Assembly (NCBI GenBank): GCA_000381585.1
Contig: KB906735.1
Coordinates: 480,836-544,835, forward strand
Length of the DNA: 64,000 bases
Reading direction: 5' to 3'
Source: Acidobacteriaceae bacterium KBS 83
GTDB lineage: Bacteria; Acidobacteriota; Terriglobia; Terriglobales; Acidobacteriaceae
Below the pieces are notes generated by a model. That model saw only the letters and a program-made list of their open reading frames with translations, was not told where the DNA came from and made no database searches. This document shows positions 14,387-16,402 of this stretch, one piece after another. A program made the translations under genes and the position numbers. Each line of letters opens with the position of its first letter. Position 1 is the stretch's first letter.

Positions 14387-16402
14387 ATGCAGGCGAGACC
14401 GGCACCGCCAACCCGGCAGCGGGGAGGGTTCCTGGCCAGCGAGCCTCTGCTGCTCGTGGCTCTGGTCATCCTGACCCTTTATTTCGCGCGGGACCTGGTG
14501 GCCCCGATGGCGTTCGCGCTGGTGCTGAACTTTTTGCTGTCGCCGGCGGTAGCGCTGCTGGAACGGTGGCGACTGAGCCGTTCGGTGTCGGTCGTCCTGG
14601 TCATCCTGATTTTCTTCTCGGCGCTAGTGGCTACGGGCTGGGTAGTGGCGCGGCAGCTGGTGCATGTCGCTGAGCTGCTGCCGGATTATCGCGAGAATAT
14701 TCAGACCAAGCTGGACAGCCTGCATACGCCGATCGGCGGCGCGGCGGGAAGAACCATCAGCGCGCTCGAGGAGATGACCGAGCAGCTCTCGTCCCACGCC
14801 AACACAACCCTTGCCCCGCCGGAGCCGAATACAGCACTACCTACCGTGCGGCCCCGGCGCTCGCGGCAACCTGCTGCTCCGCAGGCAGGGCTGCCTGACA
14901 AGAATGCAACCCCGCAGCAGCCGACGCCGGTGCAGGTGGTGGAACCGCCTGTCTCCGTGGGCCGGTATTTGCAGGACATCTTCTCGCCGATCCTCCGGCC
15001 GCTTGCGGCGTGCGGCATCGTGATGGTCTTCACTGTGTACATGCTGATGAACCGCGAGGACCTGCGCAATCGGCTGCTGTTGCTGGCGGGGATGGGGCGG
15101 CTGAGCGTGATGACGCGGGCCTTGCGGGATGCGGCGGAGCGCATCAGCACTTATCTTGTCTGGCAGTTCGTGACCAATGTGCTGTTCGGTCTGCTATTCG
15201 GGATAGGCCTTTCGCTGATCGGTGTCCCGGATGCGACGCTGTGGGGTGCGTTGGCCGCGATCCTCCGCTACATCCCCTACGTGGGCACGGGCATCGCCGG
15301 GCTGCTGCCGGTGATCTTTGCGGTCGCAATTTTTCCCCGTTGGCGGGAGGTTCTGGAGATCGTCGGGCTCTATGGCGCGCTGGAAATTGTGACTGCGAAT
15401 TTCTTCGAGCCTTGGCTCTACGGGTCGCGCACCGGTATCTCCGCGCTGGCGCTGTTGGCTTCGGCCATCTTCTGGACCCTGCTGTGGGGTTGGTCCGGAC
15501 TGGTGCTGGCTACGCCGTTGACGGTTTGCCTGATCGTGCTTGGGCGCCACGTGCCGCAGCTTCGTTTCCTTCATGTGCTGCTGGGTGAAGATGCCGAGCT
15601 GGCGCCGGAAGCGAAGTTCTACGAGCGTCTGCTGGCGATGGACCAGAACGAGGCGTACAGCATTGCCGACCGGTTCCTCAACGAGCGACCGCTCATCGAC
15701 TTCTACGATGCTGTGCTGCTGCCCGCGCTGGGACTGGTAGAGCAGGACCGGCACCAAGGATCTTTCGATGAGGCTCGTGGGAACTATCTGCTGATGAGCG
15801 CGACCGAGCTGGTGGCGGAATTAAGCGAGTACAAGAGCGAAGCTGGTCCTACGGCGCCGGAAGATGGCAGCCCTGAAAACAGCACTAGTAAAAATGGTGC
15901 CCTTGAGGTTTCGAATCTGGAGCCCGAAGGGCTGCAGAAGCGTTCTCCGATTATCTGCATTCCTGCCGGCGACCAGGCAGACGAGCTGACGGCGATGGTG
16001 CTGGCGCAGCTGCTGGAGCAGAGCAATCACAAAACGCTGCTGCTACCGACCGCGTCCGTGACGCCGGAGATCCTGGAGCGGCTGGGAGAGGACGCCGGCA
16101 CGATTCTCTGCATCTCCGCAATGCCACCATTCGTCTTTACGCAGACGCGAACTCTTTGCCAGCGCATCCGGGAGCAACTTCCGGAGAACCGCATTCTGGT
16201 CGCCCTGTGGCAGTCCATACAGAGCCCGGAGACGATGCGAGAGCGCTTCGGTAGCGCAAGACCAGACCGCGTGGTGACTACGCTGGCAGCTGCGATGGTG
16301 CAGATCGAGCGGTGGCAGAAAGGCGATGCCGCGCGAGTAGATGTAGCACGAGTGGAAGGGGCCGCCGCCCGTGAATTTGCAGCCAAAGGACCGATGGAGT
16401 GA
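14387..16402 (+). CDS. AI-2E/PerM-family transporter with C-terminal sensor-like extension
   Basis: 671 residues, far longer than the usual 350-400. Residues 15 to about 400 form the UPF0118/AI-2E exporter-like membrane domain (early helices, then LRYIPYVGTGIAGLLPVIFA and FFEPWLYGSRTGISALALL), with a Pro-rich insertion near 140-185. From about 405 a soluble tail begins. Its helical segment (FYERLLAMDQNEAYSIADRF, then DFYDAVLLPALGLVEQDR) resembles the cap that precedes B12-binding domains. After a polar linker, a Rossmann-like segment starts near 519 (IICIPAGDQADELTAMVLAQ). The DxHxxG cobalamin ligand motif is not present. The family transports varied small molecules; the substrate is unknown. 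Confidence 0.85.
   Translation: MQARPAPPTRQRGGFLASEPLLLVALVILTLYFARDLVAPMAFALVLNFLLSPAVALLERWRLSRSVSVVLVILIFFSALVATGWVVARQLVHVAELLPDYRENIQTKLDSLHTPIGGAAGRTISALEEMTEQLSSHANTTLAPPEPNTALPTVRPRRSRQPAAPQAGLPDKNATPQQPTPVQVVEPPVSVGRYLQDIFSPILRPLAACGIVMVFTVYMLMNREDLRNRLLLLAGMGRLSVMTRALRDAAERISTYLVWQFVTNVLFGLLFGIGLSLIGVPDATLWGALAAILRYIPYVGTGIAGLLPVIFAVAIFPRWREVLEIVGLYGALEIVTANFFEPWLYGSRTGISALALLASAIFWTLLWGWSGLVLATPLTVCLIVLGRHVPQLRFLHVLLGEDAELAPEAKFYERLLAMDQNEAYSIADRFLNERPLIDFYDAVLLPALGLVEQDRHQGSFDEARGNYLLMSATELVAELSEYKSEAGPTAPEDGSPENSTSKNGALEVSNLEPEGLQKRSPIICIPAGDQADELTAMVLAQLLEQSNHKTLLLPTASVTPEILERLGEDAGTILCISAMPPFVFTQTRTLCQRIREQLPENRILVALWQSIQSPETMRERFGSARPDRVVTTLAAAMVQIERWQKGDAARVDVARVEGAAAREFAAKGPME

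Follow-up and report, generated by a model that had tools for sequence, protein, structure and literature searches.

An AI-2E-family transporter from Acidobacteriaceae bacterium KBS 83 with a predicted B12-type module at its C-terminus and aspartate at the place of the cobalt-ligating histidine

Introduction

The closest described protein is HaAI-2E (WP_052573826), in which an AI-2E domain is combined with a cobalamin-binding domain (CBD) and a diguanylate cyclase (DGC). In the parts of the source that treat it, HaAI-2E served as a negative control: it has Arg at the site of the cobalt-ligating His, bound OHCbl and neither AdoCbl nor MeCbl, offers limited room for AdoCbl and is light-independent (PMC11796333). 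One AI-2E-CBD protein is thus already in print and the architecture is therefore not categorically new; beyond that report, the literature searched, with most subscription journals outside its reach, yielded no other AI-2E-CBD protein. The same search, with the same restriction, returned nothing on the breadth of the tailed clade described below, its single origin, its conserved Asp or its stress context.

The CarH-type signature, as given in sections of the same source, consists of W131, E141 and H142 in TtCarH, where the residue after the cap Trp is H132 (PMC11796333). A further B12-type fold is found in the SCHIC domain of the photosynthesis regulator AppA, which is described, in the section concerned, as carrying haem in place of cobalamin (PMC10734443). 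On the transporter side, the relevant passages of a study of the UPF0118 Na+(Li+)/H+ antiporter group, which belongs to the same Pfam family as the protein studied here, count only two characterised AI-2E members in the transporter database and describe no comparable tail (PMC7221264).

We analysed a stretch of 64,000 nucleotides from Acidobacteriaceae bacterium KBS 83, hereafter the window, in which a single gene joins an AI-2E membrane domain to a B12-type module. The clade to which it belongs carries a regulatory-looking domain within the transporter polypeptide, so that a ligand would give a lead to the physiological signal and perhaps to what is transported; the clade also offers a view of the fate of a B12 module that has given up its cobalt ligand while the rest of the site is still conserved.

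Results and discussion

The gene (14387..16402, + strand) was recognized as an AI-2E transporter fused to a B12-type module from its reading frame, its PF01594 match and the structural model. The frame begins with ATG, stays open for 671 codons and has a single stop at its end, and the translation agrees with the extension to residue 671 reported in the first-pass annotation. PF01594 (AI-2E_transport) matched the 671-aa protein with an E-value of 2.7e-43, best over residues 194-384, and the score of 148.9 bits against a curated cut-off of 34.3 places the protein in the AI-2E family; outside the AI-2E domain the Pfam scan returned zero families above cut-off. The AI-2E (PerM/TqsA-type) membrane domain comprises residues 1-399 (14387..15583, + strand). 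It matched TqsA (7nb6) by sequence with an E-value of 4.9e-21, and a Foldseek search with the full-length model (mean pLDDT 84.4) listed TqsA first (E 3.5e-10, TM-score 0.74 on the target), followed by B12 modules. TqsA shares the whole membrane domain with the window protein, whereas its chain is only 344 aa long. In the model the last membrane helix reaches about residue 388 and is followed by a short helix at 390-399, which is where, at about residue 400, the membrane domain had been said to end. An insert in the loop between helices 3 and 4 (residues 140-178; 14804..14920, + strand) is modelled with low confidence (pLDDT < 50) and is probably periplasmic. Motifs C (DFiPIiGSI) and D (IRRTVEPKVMG) of the UPF0118 group, as given in the available part of that study (PMC7221264), were unmatched by eye, the window protein having RYIPYVGTGI and ANFFEPWLYG. 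The own genome contains one full-length match and three weaker matches, in frames of 373, 215 and 243 aa, which leave the tail uncovered.

To characterize the tail, residues 398-671 alone were modelled with AlphaFold from an alignment of 77 tails. The model (mean pLDDT 88.6, pTM 0.82) contains four helices at residues 407-479, a linker, an alternating alpha/beta domain at about 521-640 and a long C-terminal helix, and the B12-type two-domain module as a whole corresponds to residues 407-640. The four-helix cap (15605..15823, + strand) coincides with a sub-threshold PF02607 match and has the family consensus YQRLLAMD and LYDxVLIPAL; residues 480-520 (15824..15946, + strand) form a variable linker that is gappy in the alignment and mostly of low confidence (about 483-520 in the model); and the Rossmann (flavodoxin-like) domain (residues 521-640; 15947..16306, + strand) coincides with a sub-threshold PF02310 match. 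The helical segment resembling a B12-module cap, the linker and the Rossmann-like domain, which had been proposed earlier with peptides that correspond to residues 438-454 and 522-541, are all recovered in the predicted structure.

The fold search that had been recommended as a check placed CtMerR (8jbs) and CarH B12 modules on top, with E-values of about 1e-6. VIA-align, which re-aligns Foldseek matches only, superposed the tail model, cap followed by Rossmann domain, on photocobilin 8j2x (Z 18.5, 3.5 A over 201), AppA SCHIC 4heh (Z 18.0, 3.3 A over 200), methionine synthase 1bmt (Z 16.2, 4.1 A over 220), AerR 7te2 (Z 15.9) and CarH 5c8e (Z 15.3). Scanned alone against Pfam, the window tail gave sub-threshold matches in the canonical order to B12-binding_2 (E 0.035) and B12-binding (E 0.061), missing the cut-offs with 14.7 against 23 bits for PF02607 and 13.6 against 32.1 bits for PF02310; a tail from the branch that we call f25 exceeded the PF02310 cut-off, with 33.7 against 32.1 bits. 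When tails were scanned singly at E-values up to 10, PF02310 was found in 74/77 and PF02607 in 69/77, the next family in 4/77 and Response_reg in 1/77. Alignments of the tails with hhalign reached moderate probabilities (75 and 85%), with response-regulator receivers scoring not far below B12 domains. Based on these models and profiles, we regard both the AI-2E transporter identity and the predicted B12-type fold of the tail as firm.

The DxHxxG ligand motif had been reported as absent, and this is borne out by the alignments. HMM alignments to 8jbs, 2i2x, 1y80, 8j2y, 4jgi, 8j2w and 8j2x, gapless in the first loop, place D532 on the cobalt-ligating His, and a profile-profile alignment against 24 B12 domains of related genomes in which DxHxxG is intact does the same, again with a gapless first loop; a by-eye alignment that put A531 at this place was rejected on the strength of these two. 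The pair D532-E533 (15980..15985, + strand) thus consists of Asp at the place of the His, followed by a conserved acidic residue. In alignment A2, whose 77 tails include those of the 79 named loci except L114, L121 and L123, D532 is present in 77/77 and Glu at 533 in 73/77. A wider set of 104 tails, which takes in Pseudomonadota, Planctomycetota and the f25 branch, has Asp at position 532 in 97, Leu in four, a gap in three and His in none, that is, no His among the 101 aligned tails. The bare pattern DxHxxG occurs in 8/104 tails, none of them with His at the aligned position, and was taken as chance.

The four tails with Leu at 532 constitute the f25 branch and read GERLSLG, the Leu standing opposite the His of photocobilin 8j2w in a direct alignment. 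This is a deep branch of the tailed clade (L038-L041 and L266-L279, some of them the same genes) with ExLxxG, in which the Gly of DxHxxG is kept, and photocobilin is its best PDB match by sequence. Relatives of the same class (L280 and L283-L286) are free-standing B12-type proteins without a membrane domain; they retain the His and have Glu for the Asp of DxHxxG, with GEFHDVG in L283, L284 and L286, GEFHDLG in L285 and GERHSLS in L280. With Asp or Leu at 532 in the tails and His in the free-standing relatives, neither branch of the lineage fused to the transporter has the His.

Of the other two motifs of the cobalamin site, SxL is retained partially and GG is lost. At the place of SxL the window tail has S577-A-M within SAMPP (residues 577-581; 16115..16129, + strand), which reads SALPP in the family; Ser is found at 577 in 75/77 tails, Leu at 579 in 64/77 and P581 in 77/77. 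At the end of strand 4, the GG motif is missing and A606-L-W608 stands instead, GxW in the family, with W608 (16208..16210, + strand) at the GG place and Trp in 76/77 and 93/104 tails. DE, SALPP and GxW therefore stand in the same three loops where DxHxxG, SxL and GG would be, and the acidic pair, S577, P581, R588 and W608, all at the canonical ligand edge, are frequent in different phyla. The loops that follow strands 1, 3 and 4 at their C-terminal edges, chosen for carrying the B12 motifs, have a mean entropy of 1.32, compared with 2.10 for the remaining positions of the domain. A value this low arose in 638 of 20000 random placements (about 3%), which makes the conservation modestly unusual. 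The edges of strands 2 and 5, with 2.56 and 1.66, are without such conservation.

In the cap, alignment to 8jbs sets R455-H456 (15749..15754, + strand) opposite the CtMerR Trp and the next residue, and the pair would therefore occupy the place of CarH W131/H132. R455 is present in 73/77 tails and H456 in 69/77, the latter in only 15/32 of a diverse set and in 0/5 plasmid-borne proteobacterial rows. The residue after the cap Trp is Arg in CtMerR and H456 in the window protein. Since most Acidobacteriota tails have H456, an upper-face His ligand is possible there. The CarH cap Trp and Glu-His are absent, with R455, G465 and N466 opposite the CtMerR residues and positions 465 and 466 variable; a canonical CarH-type photoreceptor was rejected due to these missing signature residues. 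CarH/LitR, CtMerR and the photocobilins therefore resemble the tail in the four-helix cap and Rossmann domain and, for most Acidobacteriota tails, in the His at the CarH H132 place, whereas they differ in the DxHxxG His, the cap Trp and the Glu-His, all of which are replaced in the tail. The output of CarH-type proteins is DNA binding, while here the output part is a transporter. HaAI-2E and the window protein have in common an AI-2E domain and a B12-type module without the cobalt-ligating His; they differ in that HaAI-2E has Arg and a DGC and the window protein Asp and no DGC, a comparison drawn from the published description (PMC11796333, in part).

We examined how widely the fusion occurs, since a survey across Acidobacteriota had been suggested. 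The tail is found in 33/150 sampled genomes of the same family, and the fusion recurs beyond the phylum. In named genomes, 165 pattern matches led to 86 confirmed cases, of which 79 loci were kept; these are mostly from Terriglobia, with others labelled Betaproteobacteria, Planctomycetota, Phycisphaerales, Limisphaerales and PVC group. An alignment search with up to nine candidates scored per genome found the tail in at least 17 of 297 genomes. A search with an f25 tail in the class of that branch matched 37/147 genomes, free-standing B12-type proteins included. Among plasmids, 197 records contain the tail, chiefly from Sinorhizobium (74), Rhizobium (56) and Agrobacterium (20). Phage records gave zero tail matches, and a phage origin was set aside on this ground. 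The 79 named loci and 197 plasmid records rule out a lone oddity of one genome, and the presence of the tail in relatives, together with the confident model, rules out a chance ORF or a disordered tail; the tail is conserved across homologues, so that the disorder named earlier as a possible refutation was not borne out.

AI-2E transporters themselves are common, being present in 106/119 sampled Acidobacteriota genomes and in 13/14 well-known control genomes. Among 183 AI-2E domains, 104 tailed proteins extend by a median of 246 aa past the domain, and 79 scored tail-less by no more than 88 aa. We computed a tree of 158 of these 183 transporter domains after near-copy thinning (IQ-TREE quick search, with a long-branch warning), in which a single clade of 88 rows with SH-aLRT of 100 takes in all 87 tailed rows; the tail-less rows of the tree are nearly all from Acidobacteriota, E. 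coli and other named distant AI-2E proteins being left out. The clade spans Acidobacteriota, Planctomycetota, Verrucomicrobiota and Pseudomonadota, with f25 branching first. Because all tailed rows group together, the fusion is probably old and single, one origin being the simplest reading. The sole tail-less row within the clade is L114, where the tail lies in the next in-frame ORF: the membrane part and the tail occupy two in-frame ORFs (L114:4813-6936) with one stop codon at the junction, which may be a broken gene, a true two-gene form or an assembly error. From these comparisons the AI-2E/B12-module pairing turns out to be, as it appears, one old, widespread and almost unnoticed branch of proteins. 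The named features under the tail match, among the 40 plasmid rows listed, are all annotated as 'AI-2E family transporter' with the tail unmentioned.

Some members carry additional domains. Three long tailed members (L033, L037 and L044) were tested for GAF, and all three have an extra C-terminal GAF domain after the tail (PF01590, E 2.4e-12 to 4.4e-14). In L282, from Acidobacteriota, a second diverged B12-like module follows the first and has GEEPETG at the motif place. A similar pair of B12-like modules is encoded by an ORF of L287, also from Acidobacteriota, that is cut short before any membrane domain.

Our preferred explanation, held tentatively and with a little less than even confidence, is that the window gene encodes an AI-2E-family exporter or antiporter that bears at its C-terminus a regulatory module, located in the cytoplasm and derived from a cobalamin-binding sensor. 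Most likely the tail serves as a regulatory domain in the cytoplasm and has lost His-on binding of cobalamin; the suggestion of the first-pass annotation that it may bind another ligand or regulate the transporter stands as the best reading of the sequence. Next to the computed two-domain fold, the attachment within one clade, the loss of the His in both branches and the other residues at the three loops, the sensor-like company of the tail (GAF after it, or a second B12-like module) suggests the same explanation. A regulatory role of the tail in the cytoplasm is likely. With the assumed topology, Lys/Arg number three at the N-terminus, three after helix 2, seven after helix 4 and two at the tail junction, and the long loop 96-192, on the presumed outer side, contains 8 Lys/Arg next to 10 Asp/Glu among its 97 residues; this charge pattern and the attached GAF domains fit a cytoplasmic tail. 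Counting against it, PhoA fusions assign a periplasmic C-terminus to UPF0118, another AI-2E protein, according to the part of the study that deals with topology (PMC7221264). In the proposed mechanism, a ligand- or partner-binding surface would be kept at the same edge of the module, with cobalamin no longer bound His-on; a change at that edge, as by cap movement, would be passed through the short linker at residues 400-406 to the last membrane helix, and this signal would open or close the transporter, in many lineages under stress.

It is possible, by analogy with OHCbl binding in HaAI-2E and with H456 at the place of the second CarH His, that the tail binds a corrinoid or haem. In the corrinoid case the tail would bind, for example, hydroxo- or aquocobalamin without a lower His and report cobalamin status, or oxidative or light damage, to the transporter. 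HaAI-2E bound OHCbl with Arg at the His site, according to the passages on it (PMC11796333), so that a His-off corrinoid has to be taken seriously as a rival. The nearest folds of the tail are B12 modules. H456, in 69/77 tails at the CarH upper-face His place, could ligate cobalt from above, and a B12 module with intact DxHxxG in the own genome (L135) indicates that cobalamin is probably used. Against these points, the Asp and the Trp that stand at the His and GG sites, respectively, should alter the corrin face and the nucleotide pocket, other residues take the places of the CarH Trp and Glu-His, and H456 is missing from 17/32 diverse tails. Scans of the window and of 22 tailed loci (L084 with just 34 bases before the ORF) gave no Rfam match and hence no cobalamin riboswitch, a candidate that was rejected for these sequences. 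On balance we consider corrinoid binding unlikely.

The loss of the ligand motifs would also fit a tail that acts as a scaffold, a domain for oligomerisation or protein docking that binds no small ligand and holds the transporter in its assembly or tethers a partner. CarH-type B12 modules form tetramers, as stated in the part of the source that concerns them (PMC11796333), and TqsA was deposited with five chains. The acidic pair, S577, P581, R588 and W608, which recur across phyla at the canonical ligand edge, speak against a ligand-free scaffold, and a sensing role is suggested by the GAF or second B12-like module that some members carry; we find the scaffold reading improbable too.

Still less probable is a tail that binds haem or another tetrapyrrole as a redox sensor like AppA SCHIC. 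AppA SCHIC, a haem carrier in the relevant part of its description (PMC10734443), ranks high among the fold matches (Z 18.0), and H456 of the cap could be an axial ligand; the likeness here is one of fold only, AppA SCHIC belonging to a photosynthesis regulator, unlike the transporter-fused tail. The lower axial site is Asp, or Leu in one branch, with no His in the 101 aligned tails, and H456 is missing from 17 of the 32 diverse tails. It is very improbable that the Rossmann part is a diverged response-regulator receiver with the acidic residues as its Mg-binding pair. In favour of this reading are the Rossmann part of the fold, which receivers share (Z about 12), the acidic residues behind strand 1 and an hhalign score of 36 with 16 receivers, compared with 43-45 for B12 domains. 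Against it, Ser (S577, by our inferred placement) stands at the end of strand 3, the site of the phosphoacceptor Asp in receivers; a cap domain of this kind is foreign to receivers; the alignment to B12 modules extends across the cap when the diverse alignment A4 is used (177 columns, against 90 with A2); and Response_reg is matched by only one of the 77 tails.

The regulatory module that we prefer would acquire a physiological setting from its neighbours in some lineages. The scanned neighbours of the window gene are ordinary, with a MacB/FtsX-type permease upstream and a HAD hydrolase and an SLT transglycosylase downstream. We examined 15 tailed plasmid regions, one of them without annotation. 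A Burkholderia region has BON, Spy, DUF1003, YSC84 and PRC-barrel genes and a Sinorhizobium region a general stress protein and PepSY; others have YsnF and DUF2382, DUF892 (two regions), CsbD, OsmC with PhnA-like and DUF2382, or GlsB, and six regions have few or no such stress genes. Sixteen stress-marker queries were chosen non-blind from the annotated neighbourhoods of tailed plasmid loci, once these 15 regions had been examined and clustering had shown recurrent Ysc84, BON and YflT genes near Acidobacteriota loci. At least one marker was found at 18/46 divergent tailed loci against 1/40 tail-less AI-2E loci of the phylum, and at 0/32 loci closely related to that of the window, the border between close and divergent being set by us at 43% identity and 78/79 named loci being counted, with L121 left out. 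Tail-less paralogues in the same genomes had a marker in 0/39 cases; this paired control covered 22 tailed genomes, 18 of them picked for a marker at the tailed locus, so that only the tail-less side is informative, and L246 was dropped as it is the tailed locus itself. Plasmid loci outside the query set had a marker in 3/6 cases. The loci are not independent, and the Fisher value for the comparison of divergent with tail-less loci serves only as a guide. In many lineages, then, stress genes surround the tailed transporter, though not visibly so in the window's own clade. The stress-gene context of the divergent loci counts for the preferred explanation; the close clade without stress neighbours and the ordinary neighbours of the window gene count against it.

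A more far-reaching proposal, which we consider rather doubtful though conceivable, is that an AI-2E branch in at least four phyla is gated directly in the cytoplasm by an Asp-for-His B12 module that senses a new cytosolic signal, tied to stress in many lineages. If true, transport would answer a metabolite or an oxidation state without a transcription step.

On Sinorhizobium meliloti plasmids (L129 and L177), the tailed transporter stands directly before an EAL-domain gene, which by synteny would be SMa0137 in strain 1021, with groESL nearby. In Rm1021 the tail matches pSymA at 73447-74100 of NC_003037. A sigma/anti-sigma pair in the same neighbourhood corresponds by synteny to rpoE6.
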